The notes below the pieces were generated by a model. The model was given only the letters and a program-made list of their open reading frames with translations. It did no database searches and was not told the origin of the DNA. 12,123 nt of DNA from Clostridia bacterium (GTDB taxonomy: Bacteria; Bacillota; Clostridia; Christensenellales; CAG-1252), in contig JAFZZX010000143.1 in NCBI GenBank assembly GCA_017615515.1, forward strand, positions 1-12,123, written 5' to 3'. Position numbers and translations under genes: made by a program. Of this stretch, positions 1-6,847 are shown one piece after another; position 1 is the first letter of the stretch, and each line of letters opens with the position of its first letter.

Positions 1-1197
1 GTCGAACGGCTTTGCCTTGCTGTTGATGTTGATCGGCATACCACGGTCGTAAACCTTATCGGAGATTGCGAACGTCGAGTCGTCGTTGTTCGCCGTGCCG
101 ACGAACCACATATTTTCGGGAAGACGGAAACGACCTTTTTCAACGTGCTTCGGGTCGGACGGCCATCCGCTCGGGACGAGGTCAACGATCCACTGGTCGC
201 GGCTCGGCATTTCGAGAATGGAGAGCATTTCCGCGAAGTAGTACTCGACACGAGCGATGTTCATTTCGTCGAGGACGGTCAAATACACGTCTTCGTTGTA
301 AGTCGCGTCGTACATCGCCTTCAACACCTCGGTCTCGTTGAACCTCTTGGTAAATTCGTTGAAGTATCCGAAGATTTCGGTTCTGTCACGCCAGGACGGC
401 TGCACGGACGCGATGGTCGTCGGGTTGTCGATAAAGTGTCCGATACATTCGGGAAGTGACGTTTTACCTGTACCGGAAATACCCTGCAGGATAATGAGGC
501 GCGTCGTAGCCAAACTGGCGAAGAACAATCGTATGATCTTTGGTTCGTAATACAGTTTACGCCACGGTCTCTGCGGGTTGTTCGCCGCGTAGTTTCGGAA
601 GGTGTCGCAGATCTCCTCGAGCGAGACTTCCTTGTTGAACTCGGTATGGCGTTGCGAGCCTTCTTCCGCATAGGTCACGTCAACTTCGGTCAGCTTGTAG
701 AAACGGCTCTCGCCCTCTTTCTTCTGGCTCGAAGTATCTTCGCCTTCGTTGCCTTCCAAGACGTCGTAGCCTTGATAGCCGATCTTGAGACCGAGGATGC
801 GGTCCTTTTCGCGCGTGAGTTTGACGATTTGATTCTTCAAGTTGCCGATCTCGTCGACGAGGTCCTGGTTGAGGACGCGGCTGCCGAAGAGCCTTTTAAA
901 GAAACGAACCAAGAAATAAATGCCGACGATCAAAACGGCAAGCAGAGCAAGCATCACGAGGATCACGATCGCCCACGCGCCGATCCATTGTCCGGTGCTC
1001 ATCTGCGACGCACCTTCCAGCGCCTTGTAATGCGCGACGACCTCCATGTACTGGTCGACCGCAAAGAGCTGGCGCAGCGCGCCGATCACGCCGCCGTAGT
1101 AGGTCTTACCGCTTATGCCGCTCGGTTGCGTATAGAGTAGCCCGAGGAAGCCGAAGAAGAATACCTGCAAAAAATCTCTGATAAACTCCGTAAACAT
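1..1197 (-). CDS. Membrane-anchored McrB-like AAA+ ATPase (3' end outside window)
   Basis: An open frame of 399 codons runs from ATG at 1197 to the left edge, so the C-terminus is missing. Seen: two hydrophobic stretches, a short one at residues 5-22 and a strong transmembrane helix at about 71-97, then a probable coiled coil (112-135), then an AAA+ core. The core has Walker A GISGTGKT (239-246), Walker B YLTVLDEMN (305-313), a sensor-1-like GTANND (367-372) and an arginine-finger-like DR (384-385). The linking stretch SWRDRTEIFGYFNEFTKRF and the NIARVEYYFAEMLSILE stretch after Walker B are typical of the McrB/MoxR-like branch of AAA+ proteins. Inference: the ATPase faces the cytoplasm, tethered to the membrane, rather than being a soluble restriction GTPase. 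It follows the signal peptidase gene after 75 bases and is probably cotranscribed. The Shine-Dalgarno is weak (AGG 8 bases before ATG); an in-frame TAG lies four codons upstream, which fixes the start. No partner (McrC or other) is visible before the edge. Confidence 0.88.
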   Translation of the reverse strand, partial: MFTEFIRDFLQVFFFGFLGLLYTQPSGISGKTYYGGVIGALRQLFAVDQYMEVVAHYKALEGASQMSTGQWIGAWAIVILVMLALLAVLIVGIYFLVRFFKRLFGSRVLNQDLVDEIGNLKNQIVKLTREKDRILGLKIGYQGYDVLEGNEGEDTSSQKKEGESRFYKLTEVDVTYAEEGSQRHTEFNKEVSLEEICDTFRNYAANNPQRPWRKLYYEPKIIRLFFASLATTRLIILQGISGTGKTSLPECIGHFIDNPTTIASVQPSWRDRTEIFGYFNEFTKRFNETEVLKAMYDATYNEDVYLTVLDEMNIARVEYYFAEMLSILEMPSRDQWIVDLVPSGWPSDPKHVEKGRFRLPENMWFVGTANNDDSTFAISDKVYDRGMPININSKAKPFD

Positions 1198-1272
1198 AGT
1201 TCGTACCTATCCTTTCTCCCTTTTTCGTGAGGGGCGAATACGCCCGACCCGATCCCGCGCGCAGGGATCTCC
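1198..1272 (-). other. Spacer with two small hairpins between peptidase and ATPase genes
   Basis: The 75 bases between the signal peptidase stop and the ATPase start hold two inverted repeats: GATCCC/GGGATC with a 7-base loop (1251-1269) and GGGCG/CGCCC with a 4-base loop (1232-1245). Neither is followed by a T tract on the minus strand, so they do not look like an intrinsic terminator. They could partly uncouple or stabilise the downstream ATPase message; this is inference. Confidence 0.45.
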
Positions 1273-2148
1273 CTATTCCGATTCTCCGTCGTGCGGCGTA
1301 TCGTCTTTCGCCGCCGCTTGGCTCTTCAGATACTCCTCAATCGCTCTCCTCTTGATCTCCTCTTCGTCGATCGAAGCGAGCGCCGCCTGCTTGGCTTGTT
1401 CCGCCGCCACCGCGTTGGCCTTCTTCATCCTGCCCTCGATCACGATCTGCGCGACCAAATAGATGTTGTAAAGCAACAACAGTCCGAGCGGGATGATGAT
1501 CACGTAAATGAAGTTGTAACCGCTACGCACCCAAGTCAAGGCGTATCCCAACTTGTTGATATGGAACGAGTAGACCGCCTGCACGCTGCCCGCGACTTTC
1601 AACGTACTATCGAGCGGCGCGTTGGGATTGTCACCCTGCGTCCTATACTTGCGTACGCCGTCCACGATCTCAACCTTCACGATTCTGTGGGTGTTGAGCT
1701 CGCGTTCGCCGTCCTTCATAAACTCGAAAGTGATGACGTCGCCGACTTCATAGTCGTCCTCTGCGTGCGGGCCCGTCGCAAACACGAGCGCGCCGGCGGG
1801 GAATCCTTTGTAGACCACGCCGTCGATCTCCCTCTCGCCATCCATAGAATCGGACAAAACGGGCAGGAGCTTTAATCCCGCGGAGGACACTTCGCCCTGC
1901 TTCGGGTTCATGATCATCGCAATGGTCAGAATGAGAGCGACCACGACGAGCAAGATCTGCACGCCCAAAAGAATACCGTTCAAGATCTTCTTTTTCTTGG
2001 TCATCGGCTTGTCGCCTTTTTTGTCATTTGCCCCCTTCTGCTCCGTCGAGGCGTCCGCCACGGGTGCTTCGACGGCCGTCGAGGACGTTTCCGTGACATC
2101 TTCGGTCGGCAGAGCGGTTTCTGCTTTCAATTGTTCTTTCTCTTCCAT
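1273..2148 (-). CDS. sipW: SipW-type signal peptidase I with long cytoplasmic tails
   Basis: A 291-residue membrane peptidase of family S26B (ER/SipW type), which removes signal peptides on the outer face of the membrane. Seen in order: a charged, Thr/Glu/Ala-rich N-terminal extension (1-54), transmembrane helix 1 (about 56-80), the catalytic block VLSDSM with nucleophile Ser101, the block LNTHRI with His154 in the place of lysine (the S26B hallmark), the conserved TQGDNPNAP block (170-178), transmembrane helix 2 (about 213-237), and a charged Ala/Glu-rich tail (238-291) that may form a coiled coil. SipW-family enzymes are usually about 190 residues; the extra length lies in both cytoplasmic ends. 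Start chosen at ATG 2148 because AGGGAG (2155-2160) sits 6 bases upstream; the frame stays open to 2346 but that extension is Arg-rich and lies inside the preceding gene. Its stop-to-start gap from the TasA-like gene is 11 bases, so it is the likely processor of that protein. Confidence 0.9.
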   Translation of the reverse strand: MEEKEQLKAETALPTEDVTETSSTAVEAPVADASTEQKGANDKKGDKPMTKKKKILNGILLGVQILLVVVALILTIAMIMNPKQGEVSSAGLKLLPVLSDSMDGEREIDGVVYKGFPAGALVFATGPHAEDDYEVGDVITFEFMKDGERELNTHRIVKVEIVDGVRKYRTQGDNPNAPLDSTLKVAGSVQAVYSFHINKLGYALTWVRSGYNFIYVIIIPLGLLLLYNIYLVAQIVIEGRMKKANAVAAEQAKQAALASIDEEEIKRRAIEEYLKSQAAAKDDTPHDGESE

Positions 2149-2159
2149 TTTTTTCTCCC

Positions 2160-3101
2160 TTACATCGAACCTGTTGCGAATTCTACGGCAAGCTTCACCT
2201 GTCCGCCGAGGATATCGTCGACACATTGCGGGTCTTGTCCTTCGAGCCAGATAACGATGGTATATTTGATAACTTCTCCGACGTTCAGCGGATAGAGTTC
2301 GCTGTTCACGACGTAACCGTCGCCCAGGAACGCCTTGGTCATCCAAACGCCGTCTTCGCGAATATCCGCGGGATCGAATTCGAACTTCTCGTAATCGATC
2401 ATTCCCTGCGGCTTATACGCGGTGAGCATGCCGCCGGGCGGCACCACTTCTTCCAAGATGGGATTGCCTTGCTCGTCCGTCAAGGTGTTGCCTTCGGCGT
2501 CGCACTTCGGCGCGGCGTAGACGCTGATCTCGCCGTAATTCTCGTCGTCAGGCGGTTCGACATCCTTGATCACGAGAATGCGGATCGCCTTTTCCATTCC
2601 CTTCATCGCGCGATCGAGCGTGATGATCTCGCGATAGGAGATCGCTTCGTTTCCGGTGTTTTTAAGGAAGAACGAGGTCGCGATGAAATAGTCCTCCGTG
2701 CCTTCTCCCTTATACACGCCGTCCGTGGAATAGATGTCCAACAATTTGTGATCCAAATAGTTGCAAAGCGTGCTGTTGTCCATATTCTTCGGCGCCGAAA
2801 CGTCGAGCACGCTGGTCGGATTGGTAAAGTCGTAGTCCTTGGACAAAGACAGCCACGCCGTGCCGGTGTGCGAGACCGAAACGCGGAAGTTGCTCTCGTC
2901 CACGAACTGCATGATCGCATAGGTAATGCCCGCAAGCAAAGAAACGATCAATAGGAAAAGGAGCAGGATGATGATGAGCGTTCTCCTGCGCGACTGCCTA
3001 CGCACCCGCTTGTTCTTGATGATATATTCGTTCTCTTTGCGGAGTTCCTCTTGGATCTGCTCCGCCGAGACCTTGTCTATATTATCACCTTGCTTCGCCA
3101 T
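2160..3101 (-). CDS. TasA/camelysin-like secreted or membrane protein, probable SipW substrate
   Basis: A 313-residue protein with a hydrophilic basic N-terminus (1-40), one hydrophobic segment (41-63) ending GITYA, and then an extracytoplasmic domain. The form 'hydrophobic run then TYA' followed by a short acidic linker and an NF.V strand is the pattern of SipW-dependent signal sequences; cleavage after Ala62 is my guess. The body has features of the TasA/CalY beta-sandwich type: FFLKNTGNEAISYR (144-157) and, near the end, the block YTIVIWLEGQDPQC (280-293) followed by GGQVKLAVEF. Sequence identity to real TasA is low, so family membership is a motif judgement. The ATG overlaps the stop of the upstream gene by 17 bases, with AAGGTGA (3108-3114) 6 bases before it, which implies translational coupling. 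The 40-residue basic cytoplasmic head is longer than in ordinary secreted SipW substrates, so it may remain membrane-tethered if uncleaved. Confidence 0.75.
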   Translation of the reverse strand: MAKQGDNIDKVSAEQIQEELRKENEYIIKNKRVRRQSRRRTLIIILLLFLLIVSLLAGITYAIMQFVDESNFRVSVSHTGTAWLSLSKDYDFTNPTSVLDVSAPKNMDNSTLCNYLDHKLLDIYSTDGVYKGEGTEDYFIATSFFLKNTGNEAISYREIITLDRAMKGMEKAIRILVIKDVEPPDDENYGEISVYAAPKCDAEGNTLTDEQGNPILEEVVPPGGMLTAYKPQGMIDYEKFEFDPADIREDGVWMTKAFLGDGYVVNSELYPLNVGEVIKYTIVIWLEGQDPQCVDDILGGQVKLAVEFATGSM

Positions 3102-5853
3102 CTTTCTTCACCTTAGGCACCGGCTTTATGTTGGTCAGCGCCAGATTGATCAGTCGCATCGGGCGCGCAACCGCATCGCCCTGTATTACCTTTACGCCGT
3201 GATCGAGCAAAATACGAGCGTCTTCCTTATGCTCGCAGTTGATGGAAGTCGTCACGATATTCTGCACGTCGGCATAGCCCGTTATCATATCGAGATGGGC
3301 AAGACGCTTCTCGCTGTTGCCGTCGTAGTACCTCGCGTCCAATCTCAAATAATCGAAATCGTATTCCGTGAGCACGCGCATGCTCGCGCTCTCCGCATTA
3401 TCTATCATGATCAGCGCGCCTTGTGATTTCAGCGTGTTGATCGCGCTGATACCCACAAAGCCGACCGCCTCGAGCATCGCGCAGTCAAAAGCCAGGATCA
3501 AATTGCCGTGTTCGGTCTTCATTCTGTCCACGAGCTTGGTCAAGGTCTCCTGCTTCAGCAATAAGCGGCAGCTGATCTTGGTCGCGAACCGCACGTCGGG
3601 ATTCTCGTTGCAATTCTTGACGATCTCGTCGAGAGCAAAGAAGTTCAACTCCTCGATACGGGTGCTGCTCTCCGCCATCGCGAAATACTCCTGCGGGATC
3701 ATCTTGCCGAGGAACTTGTCGTTCAGGACCTGCTGCACGTTGAGGTACTGCACCGCGCCGTCCTCGTTGATCGCCGCGTCGTAGAAATAGACGATCGGAG
3801 AGGCGAGCGCCACGCCCGCGTTCATCGTCTTCGCCTTGCTGCGTTGCAGTTCCAATAGGTCGCGCGCGGTCAAGCCGTCTTCGGCGGAATATCCCTTCGG
3901 CACGCCCCAGGCGTCCTTGAGCCCCATCTGCGAGCGCAGATGCTCGGTCAATTCGCCGTAAATATCTACGTACTCGTCGCCTTCGTGCGCGACGCGCGGC
4001 TTATCCTCTTCGCCCTTGAAGACGCCGTTTTTAATGTACGGATACTTCTCCGCGTAGGGGACGTACGCATAGCGCTTGTTGCGTTCGAGAGAATACTTCT
4101 TGACCAATTCGTCGATCAGTTTTAGGGCGAGTTGGCGATCCTTCTCGGTCGCGATCTTCATCATCAAAAGGGTGCCTTCGTAGCCGGGCTGATCGAAAGC
4201 GTCCTTGTGTTTATACTTCTTGGTCGAATAGTCTGCGGGATCCAGCGCAAGGTAAAGCCTGACGCAGTCGCCGACGACGGTCATCCTGGCGATGATCCTC
4301 TTTTGCAGCTTAAAGTTCTCGTTCTTGACGGTCATCTCCGCACGCGTGCCCTTGTACGAGAGGATCTCGTTCTTGAGCTTGCTGTATAGGAGTTTGATCG
4401 TATTGGTGGTCTGGTGGAGCTTGTTGTCGAGCGTCAAGGGCAGGATCACGAGAGGCTCTTCTTTCACCTCTTCTTCCACGACCTCGGGCTCGGGCTCTTC
4501 GGACAGACCCGCCGCTCTGCGCTCCTCGGCGCGCTTCTCGCGCAAGAGCGCTTGTTCGTCCTTCTCCTCGAAGGCGAGCATCTTGCCCTTCTTGTCGAGG
4601 ACGGCGTCCTCACGACGCGGGAAAGCGGGCAGATAATCTTCCGACACAGGATTCTCCAAACGGTTTACGCCGAGCGCGCCCATCATGATCGCAAGCAACT
4701 CGGTCGCGATCGCGAATTCGTCGTCGTTGCGCACGCGGATCAGCATCTTCGCGTCTTCGAAATCCACCGCGGTCTTATCCGCCTGTTTGTACCTTTCTAC
4801 GTCGAACTCCTCGGGGTTCAGCGCGAAATAAATGCGCGTAAATCCGGCGATGGACACGCGGGCGACGGTTTCTTTGCCGCGACGGAACACCTCGGTCGCG
4901 CTCTGCATCTCCGCCTTCACGCCCTCGTAGGCGAGCAGTTCGTTCTTCAGCTTGTTGTAATAACGACGTTCACGGGTATCCGCAAGGATCAGCTTGTTCT
5001 CCAAACTGCGCTTTAAGATCGCCTTGCCGTCGTCGTCCAGGAGTTCGCCCTTCTCGTTGTAGACCGGCTCCTTGTTCTTCTTCTCTTCCTTTTCTTTCTC
5101 TTTCTGCTCAAGCAGCTCGGTGCCCTCTTCCGCGAGGGTCTCCGCGTTGTCTTTGATCTTCTCGAGGAGCTCTTGGCGCGCGGCGAAATCCTCACCGTAG
5201 ACGTAGTCGTCCAACTCGCCTTCCTCTTGGAATGCGCGGAGATACTCTTCGTCCATCACGAAGGGCGCTTCTTCCCCCTCGGCAGGCTCGACGGATTCTG
5301 CGGGCGCGGGCTCGGCGGGTGTGGGCTCTTGCGGCACGACGGGTCCCGCCCAATCGTCGTCGGCAACGATCGCCGCGGCGATCTCGTCCACGGACGGCTC
5401 GGTTCCTTCCGTTGCGGGCTCCGCTTCGGCACTTTCGCTCGGCTCTTCGACGGATACGGGTTCGGCAGCAGCCTCTTCGGCGGGCGCTACGGTCTCTTCG
5501 ACAGGCGCCTCGGGCGACGCGGGCTCAACGACTTCTTCGACGACGGGGTCCGCGCTCGGCTCGTCGTTCGCGGGGGCTTCTTCCATAGCGTCATCGATAG
5601 GCTCTTCCGCAGACACGGAAACAGGGGCGACGGGGCTCTCCTCCGTCACCGGTTCCGCCTGCTCGGCAGGGCTCTCTTCGGGCGCGACTTCCGTCGTGGT
5701 TTCAACGGAAGAATCCGTGAGAGGGGCTTCCTCTTTCACGGTCTCGGGGTCTATGCTTTCCGTTGCGCCGTTTAAGGACTCTTCCGCGATCTCGGGTTTC
5801 CCCTCGACGACGTCTTCATCCTTCTTCTTGCCAAAGCGCCATTTGATAGCCAA
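3085..5853 (-). CDS. Large acidic protein: two repeat modules plus degenerate EAL domain
   Basis: A 922-residue cytosolic protein (no signal or membrane helix). Seen in order, numbered from the TTG start: Glu/Pro/Ala-rich acidic low-complexity region (11-200); charged, probably helical stretch (222-262); module A (283-396); charged linker; module B (475-591); and a C-terminal domain (about 676-901). Modules A and B are diverged copies of each other, sharing L.NKL, Y.KLKNE.L.Y.G..AEM, R.Y.AL.P and YK..D. The C-terminal domain follows the EAL phosphodiesterase fold pattern: MIPQEYFAMAESS matches the 'IP..F..lAE' segment, then LILAFDCAML, ALIMIDNAESAS in place of the DDFGTGYS loop, FDYLRLDARYY, and GVKVIQGDAVARP matching the terminal 'G....QG....P'. 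The EAL triad itself and the second Asp of the DD pair are absent, so c-di-GMP hydrolysis is unlikely; a binding or scaffold role is inference. Start: TTG at 5853 has GGGAGG (5859-5864) 5 bases upstream; the frame is open to 6060 but that part has no comparable site. Confidence 0.85.
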   Translation of the reverse strand: MAIKWRFGKKKDEDVVEGKPEIAEESLNGATESIDPETVKEEAPLTDSSVETTTEVAPEESPAEQAEPVTEESPVAPVSVSAEEPIDDAMEEAPANDEPSADPVVEEVVEPASPEAPVEETVAPAEEAAAEPVSVEEPSESAEAEPATEGTEPSVDEIAAAIVADDDWAGPVVPQEPTPAEPAPAESVEPAEGEEAPFVMDEEYLRAFQEEGELDDYVYGEDFAARQELLEKIKDNAETLAEEGTELLEQKEKEKEEKKNKEPVYNEKGELLDDDGKAILKRSLENKLILADTRERRYYNKLKNELLAYEGVKAEMQSATEVFRRGKETVARVSIAGFTRIYFALNPEEFDVERYKQADKTAVDFEDAKMLIRVRNDDEFAIATELLAIMMGALGVNRLENPVSEDYLPAFPRREDAVLDKKGKMLAFEEKDEQALLREKRAEERRAAGLSEEPEPEVVEEEVKEEPLVILPLTLDNKLHQTTNTIKLLYSKLKNEILSYKGTRAEMTVKNENFKLQKRIIARMTVVGDCVRLYLALDPADYSTKKYKHKDAFDQPGYEGTLLMMKIATEKDRQLALKLIDELVKKYSLERNKRYAYVPYAEKYPYIKNGVFKGEEDKPRVAHEGDEYVDIYGELTEHLRSQMGLKDAWGVPKGYSAEDGLTARDLLELQRSKAKTMNAGVALASPIVYFYDAAINEDGAVQYLNVQQVLNDKFLGKMIPQEYFAMAESSTRIEELNFFALDEIVKNCNENPDVRFATKISCRLLLKQETLTKLVDRMKTEHGNLILAFDCAMLEAVGFVGISAINTLKSQGALIMIDNAESASMRVLTEYDFDYLRLDARYYDGNSEKRLAHLDMITGYADVQNIVTTSINCEHKEDARILLDHGVKVIQGDAVARPMRLINLALTNIKPVPKVKKDGEAR
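3151..3828 (-). other. Degenerate EAL-like domain of the large acidic protein
   Basis: Residues about 676-901 of the large protein. The order of conserved EAL-fold segments is kept, but catalytic metal ligands are altered: no EAL(L/R) signature after the first strand, DN instead of DD, and TTSINCE where active enzymes have an AEGVE-like loop. This matches the pattern of catalytically inactive EAL domains that act as nucleotide sensors or protein-binding modules. Confidence 0.72.
4081..4431 (-). repeat. Module B (second copy of internal protein repeat)
   Basis: Residues 475-591 of the large acidic protein. It begins LDNKLHQ and contains YSKLKNEILSYKG, RLYLALDPADY and KYKHKD. From memory, the LKNE.LSYK / LYLALDP pattern recurs in uncharacterised Firmicute proteins; I cannot name a family for it. 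It aligns along its length with module A. Confidence 0.75.
4666..5007 (-). repeat. Module A (first copy of internal protein repeat)
   Basis: Residues 283-396 of the large acidic protein. It begins LENKLIL and contains YNKLKNELLAYEG, RIYFALNPEEF and RYKQAD, aligning with module B over about 110 residues at clearly reduced identity. The two copies are separated by a 78-residue charged linker. Confidence 0.75.
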
Positions 5854-6256: not shown

Positions 6257-6847
6257 ATGACTTTTTACGATGACATAACGGACAACGAAAGCAAGGAAGA
6301 GGTCTCTCCCGCCGAATCGACGGAACCGACCGATCCGCCTGCCGAAAAACCGATCGAAAACGACGCCAAGGTCGAACCCGCAAACGAACCTGCGAGCGAA
6401 CCCGCACCCGAAACGGACGCGGGAACCCCCGCGCCGACCGCGGGCAGACTAGTCGCCAAGGGCAGTGGCAACAAAAGCTATCGCACCGGCACCAAAATCG
6501 CGGCGTTCATCTTCTTTATCATAACGGCGGGAATCTTCGCGCTGTACGAGTATCTTGCGTTCACCTTCCTCTATCTGCCGCTGATGGAGTCGATCGATAA
6601 CCTCGGCGAAGCCTTCGCGGCGATCTTCGCCTATATCTTCGGCTTGATCTACACCCTGATCTTCGCGGTCGCGCAACTGCCTGCGAATATCGTTACGATC
6701 ATCCTATTCAAGAGGCTCCGCGGCAAGTCGGACAAGAAGTGGGAAAACGTCCTCTTCACCGTCTTCTTCGCCCTTGCGATCGTGATGCTGCTCGTAACCG
6801 TCATTTCCACCCTGCTGTTCTTCGGCATGAGCGCTTTGGGCGGCTGA
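6257..6847 (+). CDS. Small multi-pass membrane protein with acidic Pro-rich head, function unknown
   Basis: A 196-residue protein I do not recognise. Seen: an N-terminal hydrophilic region (1-78), rich in Glu, Pro, Ala and Thr with EPA-like repeats, probably disordered and cytoplasmic; then hydrophobic segments at about 81-107, 118-150 (one long or two short helices) and 164-190. The loop FKRLRGKSDKKWEN (151-164) is positively charged and so probably cytoplasmic. There are no cysteines and no obvious catalytic residues. It has its own promoter and Shine-Dalgarno and ends in a strong terminator, so it is a monocistronic unit. It is divergent from the left operon and shares with it the habit of acidic Pro/Glu/Ala-rich cytoplasmic tails, which hints at, but does not prove, a related role. 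Alternative: a generic stress or envelope membrane protein unrelated to its neighbours. Confidence 0.85.
   Translation: MTFYDDITDNESKEEVSPAESTEPTDPPAEKPIENDAKVEPANEPASEPAPETDAGTPAPTAGRLVAKGSGNKSYRTGTKIAAFIFFIITAGIFALYEYLAFTFLYLPLMESIDNLGEAFAAIFAYIFGLIYTLIFAVAQLPANIVTIILFKRLRGKSDKKWENVLFTVFFALAIVMLLVTVISTLLFFGMSALGG

Follow-up and report, generated by a model that had tools for sequence, protein, structure and literature searches.

A CoCoPALM-type operon in Clostridia links a McrB-like NTPase and SipW signal peptidases with an anchored TasA-fold protein and a degenerate EAL protein

What is a membrane-tethered McrB-like nucleoside triphosphatase (NTPase) doing in one gene cluster with a signal peptidase and a TasA-like protein? 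The question is raised by a Clostridia contig, here called the window (contig C75:1-12123, 12,123 bp, from assembly G000 of 1.12 Mb in 208 contigs, which is 77% complete), whose positions 1 to 5853 carry on the minus strand, according to the open reading frame (ORF) calls, genes for an EAL protein, a TasA-like protein, a SipW-class signal peptidase, and the NTPase. A first-pass annotation had described them as a candidate surface-assembly operon, and all four are present in the order it gave; the first three overlap or nearly so, as it had stated, with 17 bp shared by the EAL gene and the TasA-like gene (2160-3101) and a SipW start 11 bp past the stop of the latter. The same order recurs in related genomes, and the arrangement is therefore not due to chance. 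According to our analysis, the window carries the beginning of an operon of the CoCoPALM type with further conserved parts, a membership which is well supported. The best reading of the whole, which we consider probable but far from secure, is that of a machine driven by nucleoside triphosphates (NTPs) which processes and assembles TasA-type surface fibers.

The NTPase gene (1-1197, minus strand) is cut by the contig end, leaving 399 of approximately 540 amino acids (aa). Its product contains the Walker A motif GISGTGKT, the signature GTANNDDST, and an N-terminal transmembrane (TM) segment at residues 77 to 95 (positions 913-969, minus strand, by hydropathy), followed by a charged helix-like stretch, which bears out the earlier description of a membrane-tethered McrB-like AAA+ ATPase. 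CoCoPALM was named by Bell et al. in 2024 in a few sentences (eLife 13:RP94800; PMC11090510, section 7, with PMC10542128 as its preprint), which attribute to it an NxD McrB-like NTPase with FtsB-like TM and coiled-coil helices, a McrC homologue, and proteins of the signal peptidase family. The operon studied here resembles it in its NxD McrB-like NTPase with a TM segment, its McrC homologue, usually with a coiled coil, and its linked signal peptidases, while the FtsB-like TM and coiled-coil helices can be likened to the TM segment and charged stretch of the window NTPase by layout alone. The anchored TasA-fold protein, the secreted subunits, and the EAL protein are extra here with respect to the main text of that paper, where the words SipW, EAL, TasA, camelysin, biofilm, and extracellular do not occur, although its Supplementary file 1 may list such parts. 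The earlier remark that these parts are not usually described together needs correcting in that the wider set already had a name. Outside subscription papers and supplementary files, we found in the literature no description or functional test of the joint system, and SipW, TasA, and McrB occurred together only in a paper with an unrelated title; the remaining papers in which the word CoCoPALM turned up are, to judge by their titles, on other subjects.

A scan of named genomes returned at least 491 confirmed stretches, and the counts given here refer to the best 80; the titles of these name Clostridia, Oscillospiraceae, Ruminococcus, Christensenella, Bacilli, and other Bacillota, and loci which coincide with unnamed ones on the same contigs (e.g., L057 and L077) were not counted twice. 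The motif GTxNxDxxT is present in all 80 NTPase ORFs longer than 400 aa, in agreement with the NxD signature published for CoCoPALM. An N-x-D-D reading fits the string NxxD as well; HMMER places it against E. coli McrB in a gap-free alignment, and the remoter relatives L073 and L074 have N-R-D-E, which is compatible with NxD only. A McrC-like gene accompanies the NTPase at 79 of the 80 loci, at least one SipW gene at 77, two or more at 39, and an anchored TasA-fold protein at 63. Among the three loci lacking SipW, L084 and L134 have fewer than 350 bases upstream and L155 has room but none. Where at least 4 kb is available upstream (62 loci), SipW was found in 61, the anchored protein in 55, and EAL in 41. 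Most of the stretches carrying the further NTPase relatives of L068 and L070 to L074, which may not belong to the group, are without SipW.

Since the window NTPase is open at the contig end, the continuation of the operon was taken from unbroken relatives (L057 and L059), in which an 877- to 878-aa partner and then a second SipW follow. The four genes do form part of an operon, as previously proposed, but only the first part. In the same assembly, contig C125 (L061) begins within this NTPase and encodes the partner at 1380-4016 and the second SipW at 4043-4822; its overlap with C75 (L061:1-963) spans 963 bp at 94.1% identity, suggesting that the assembly holds mixed strains. C125 is a close allele of the window's end, although it is not proven that the two are the same molecule. 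The 79 partners, encoded in our case beyond the window's end, were recognized as McrC/DUF2357-like with our own profile, in line with the McrC homologue of CoCoPALM. PF09823 scored above its cut-off in both short McrC-like homologues (2/2) but was not found in the long L061 protein. With a predicted McrC-like model, VIA-align retrieved McrC, while Foldseek matches to TolC, kinesin, and capping protein were taken as chance; the sequence profile of the partner against the PDB gave coiled-coil and other chance matches only. An ABC transporter nearest to MacB follows the second SipW in L061 (4949-8431), and a MacB-like one occupies the same place in L059 (6255-9644) but not in L057. Directly after the McrC-like gene, 12 loci encode very large proteins (e.g., L113:13835-21508), most of which exceed 2,000 aa; the one scanned matches Peptidase_M26_N (E 1.2e-7).

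Does this kinship make the operon a restriction system? The first-pass annotation would have been contradicted by an ATPase that always travels with an unrelated restriction partner; the McrC-like partner is indeed nearly constant, but it has no nuclease match and SipW is almost equally constant. No nuclease family was detected in L061:1380-4016 with Pfam or NCBIfam, although such nucleases diverge widely, and in the modeled short homologue there would be no room for a nuclease domain. Compared with the McrBC type IV restriction systems of E. coli and T. gammatolerans, the operon is also distinguished by the lack of any match to a DNA-recognition domain, by the N-x-D-D/E signature, and by the membrane anchor. 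In view of the missing nuclease match, classic McrBC restriction is not favored. CoCoNuT systems combine the N-x-D signature, coiled coils, and McrC homologues often devoid of an active nuclease (PMC11090510, main text), features which the operon has in common with them. Here, instead, the operon genes scanned gave no match to HEPN or another nuclease, and SipW and surface proteins are found.

A broader anti-phage role, in which the McrBC-related motor would sense infection at the membrane and the peptidases and surface proteins would act as effectors or decoys, draws on the kinship to McrBC and CoCoNuT, on a match to the PADLOC candidate PDC-M26A (E 1e-36), and on the fast change of the surface parts. 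Identities to the three genus loci L077 to L079 are 68 to 70% for the EAL protein, 55 to 72% for the TasA-fold protein, and 38 to 55% for the first SipW. Against such a role stand the partner without a nuclease match and the constancy of the motor and its place: the NTPase (88 to 92%) is as conserved as RpsD (88 to 90%) and compares with RpoA (79 to 90%) and RplQ (78 to 80%), RplQ precedes the NTPase by five or six ORFs at each of the three loci, and an NTPase orthologue occurs in 11 of 13 genus genomes, including the window's own and counting one fragment, unlike patchy defense islands. We consider the defense explanation unlikely. As far as sequence comparison goes, the pairing of a slowly evolving motor with rapidly changing surface parts is consistent with a machine that has a housekeeping role and whose product is exposed.

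The SipW gene most likely spans 1273-2148 (minus strand, 291 aa), with an ATG at 2148 preceded by AAGGGAG; the version scanned, 1273-2163, has five extra residues. It falls below the cut-off of the NCBIfam SipW model NF046067 (E 1.9e-17, 63.5 of 190 bits), a narrower model for Bacillus SipW, and lies barely above that of the signal peptidase I model TIGR02228 (52.8 of 51.85). Together with the motifs SDSM and NTHRIV, which we take to be the catalytic ones, this assigns the protein, which has two TM regions, to the endoplasmic reticulum-type (ER-type) Ser/His signal peptidases I and upholds its earlier naming as a SipW peptidase. Across the loci, the Ser pattern was found in 120 of 122 SipW ORFs, the His pattern, which is very loose, also in 120, and both in 119; this set omits cut ORFs and those of 450 aa or more, and a narrower serine pattern that matched 52 of 126 had been replaced.

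The gene between SipW and EAL (2160-3101, minus strand) encodes a 313-aa protein whose basic tail in the cytosol is followed by a single TM helix and a predicted TasA-type beta-sandwich. Its single hydrophobic segment comprises residues 41 to 59 (2925-2981, minus strand, by hydropathy; helix 13 to 66 in the model), and it belongs to the anchored class with a cytosolic tail. TasA fibers rank first in both comparisons of the predicted fold, by a narrow margin. As in B. subtilis tapA-sipW-tasA and in B. cereus sipW-tasA with calY, SipW lies beside a TasA-fold protein; the long cytosolic tail and the added NTPase, McrC-like, and EAL proteins set the operon apart from the Bacillus systems, and the word ATPase is absent from the papers on Bacillus TasA operons that we compared. 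The protein gave no sequence match to TasA in Pfam (up to E 10) or among PDB sequences (up to E 1), its best NCBIfam match being the TapA model (E 0.034) and further scans giving nothing at 0.01, and the label "TasA-like" consequently rests on the predicted fold and the context. The first-pass description of a single-pass TasA-like protein is hence right as to the single TM segment and the nearest predicted fold, but finds no counterpart in sequence matches to TasA.

The first-pass annotation took SipW to be the likely peptidase of this protein, whereas most relatives encode short secreted proteins of their own that are the likely substrates of SipW. These have an N-terminal signal of the A-W-F type, defined by a loose pattern, and occur near 63 of the 80 NTPases (165 genes), compared with none of 90 minus-strand ORFs at the same loci. 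A C-terminal W-x-E/D-G signature, identified by eye, is common to them and the anchored class. In six genomes of the window's genus (G002, G003, G004, G005, G008, and G010) A-W-F proteins are encoded away from the operon, several with a near-identical signal sequence and differing mature parts; in the window's genome, 77% complete, none was found. NCBIfam and Pfam scans of 50 proteins (about 48 surface candidates from 49 loci and the window's, with 26 of the 76 sampled left out, including nonsecreted neighbors) gave hardly any family names and one SipW-dependent match, to BsaA (E 0.0075). Among the orphan genes away from the operon (L157 to L162 and L168), several have a near-identical signal ending in ATYAWFTSN and unlike mature parts, and one has an in-frame TAG.

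The cytosolic tail of the anchored protein also accommodates another explanation, namely, envelope quality control or secretion processing, in which the AAA+ ring would extract or sort membrane proteins, SipW would cut them, and the TasA-fold protein would be a sensor rather than a fiber base. AAA+ rings often remodel proteins, and the genus loci L077 to L079 have no A-W-F protein in reach. The frequency of A-W-F proteins at the 80 loci and the first rank of the TasA fiber, narrow as it is, speak against it, and we give this explanation little credence.

The EAL protein (3085-5853, minus strand, about 922 aa; scans used 3085-5850) starts with TTG at 5853, preceded by GGGAGG. Its N-terminus is acidic and of low complexity, and an unnamed module occurs twice (4666-5010 and 4087-4431, minus strand, located by profile and direct match) ahead of an EAL domain (3160-3765, minus strand). 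It was previously described as a degenerate EAL protein with duplicated modules, and so we find it: the protein matches Pfam EAL at E 2.1e-16, the module copies, aligned directly, are 32% identical across 108 residues (E 2.3e-19), and only 3 of 11 canonical positions are retained. The domain has lost most of the catalytic and binding positions of a phosphodiesterase of cyclic di-GMP (c-di-GMP). None of 42 EAL-labeled ORFs at the 80 loci fits all seven EAL motif patterns, although those of L111 and L125 retain several canonical positions; Pfam confirmed EAL in both proteins scanned with it (window and L088), and elsewhere the label derives from our own profile.

Whereas a first module profile took its seeds from three sources (the window, L067, and L070), a second one built from the window copies alone picked up McrC-like proteins at the loci L070, L060, and L067, with E values from 8.6e-38 to 1.8e-24. 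The common module is a hint that EAL and McrC-like proteins may work together. The module, of about 115 aa and without a Pfam match, occurs in EAL proteins of the window's genus and a few others and in McrC-like proteins elsewhere (window, L060, L064, L067, L070, and L080 to L082, with a module protein lacking EAL in L080). PADLOC PDC-S18 models match it weakly, in copy 2 at E 3.8e-4 (scanned residues 468 to 581).

No GGDEF match, and no EAL match besides the operon copy, was obtained in the window's genome, incomplete as it is, and as far as GGDEF proteins were detected the operon is decoupled there from c-di-GMP. GGDEF proteins were found in 3 of 13 genus genomes (G002, G003, and G005). It is these three that carry an extra EAL copy, which scores higher and is located close to a second NTPase locus; in each genome, one of the GGDEF matches falls within this extra EAL protein and the remainder elsewhere. 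The extra copies were checked by residue in L060 (of G002) and L067 (of G005), and both retain 11 of 11 positions. This second locus (L060, L067, and G003:C135) has in L060 and L067 the order SipW, NTPase, McrC-like, SipW, intact EAL. Since the carriers of L149 and L156 are rich in GGDEF (41 and 47 matches) and have a degenerate operon copy all the same, GGDEF loss is not the sole route to degeneration; the genomes compared are related to one another and hence not independent. LapD and FimX are degenerate EAL receptors, and the operon resembles them in placing a noncatalytic EAL fold beside a surface-structure system, but in the window the binding positions are gone too. Active c-di-GMP control of the fibers in the window's genome, in the LapD/FimX manner, would suit the intact EAL copies of L060 and L067 and their GGDEF-bearing genomes, but with no GGDEF, a sole EAL at 3 of 11 positions, and no GGDEF match in 26 of the 38 named carriers searched among the 80, it is rejected as very improbable.

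How might fiber assembly proceed? McrC inserts a finger into the McrB hexamer and stimulates hydrolysis site by site (PMC7680126), and SipW-cut TasA assembles by donor-strand exchange with TapA as the likely nucleator (PMC9674648). By analogy, the NTPase ring would sit at the inner membrane face, held by its TM stalk, and the McrC-like protein would insert into it and stimulate hydrolysis. SipW would cut the secreted subunits, which could then polymerize on the anchored TasA-fold protein, the latter acting with its tail toward the motor as fiber base or nucleator in a TapA-like role. NTP hydrolysis may gate or drive subunit release and polymerization, the step linking the two being a guess, and the EAL-fold protein, once perhaps a c-di-GMP receptor or enzyme, would serve as a cytosolic scaffold. 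The regulated export or assembly of a surface structure that the first-pass annotation had suggested thus stays the best reading, its joint function still an inference. More tentatively, and with rather less confidence than in fiber assembly itself, we propose that an NTP-powered pilus machine of Gram-positive gut bacteria arose by the repurposing of a motor of the restriction type. Such a machine, distinct from sortase, type IV, or self-assembling TasA systems, would have begun under c-di-GMP control via EAL and kept that protein here as a scaffold after loss of the network.

New here are the anchored TasA-fold protein, the A-W-F secreted proteins, the degenerate EAL, the slow NTPase evolution, and the decoupling from c-di-GMP, whereas the name CoCoPALM was already published. 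For CoCoPALM, a group so far little described, this provides a concrete list of components and an order of events open to testing. The window is also a clear example of how an EAL protein can be retained where its second-messenger network is undetected. If the fiber reading is true, a DNA-restriction motor family would build surface fibers in many uncultured gut Clostridia, an unrecognized route to adhesion or biofilm.

The locus is probably chromosomal and vertically inherited in the genus. To the right of the operon lies what we take, naming the genes by eye from the window sequences, to be the ribosomal cluster rplQ-rpoA-rpsD; no RNA family or tRNA was matched anywhere in the window. Between the operon and rplQ, a plus-strand gene (6257-6847) encodes a 196-aa protein with an acidic N-terminus and several TM segments, which has one relative, in L057, among the first 20 stretches fetched.
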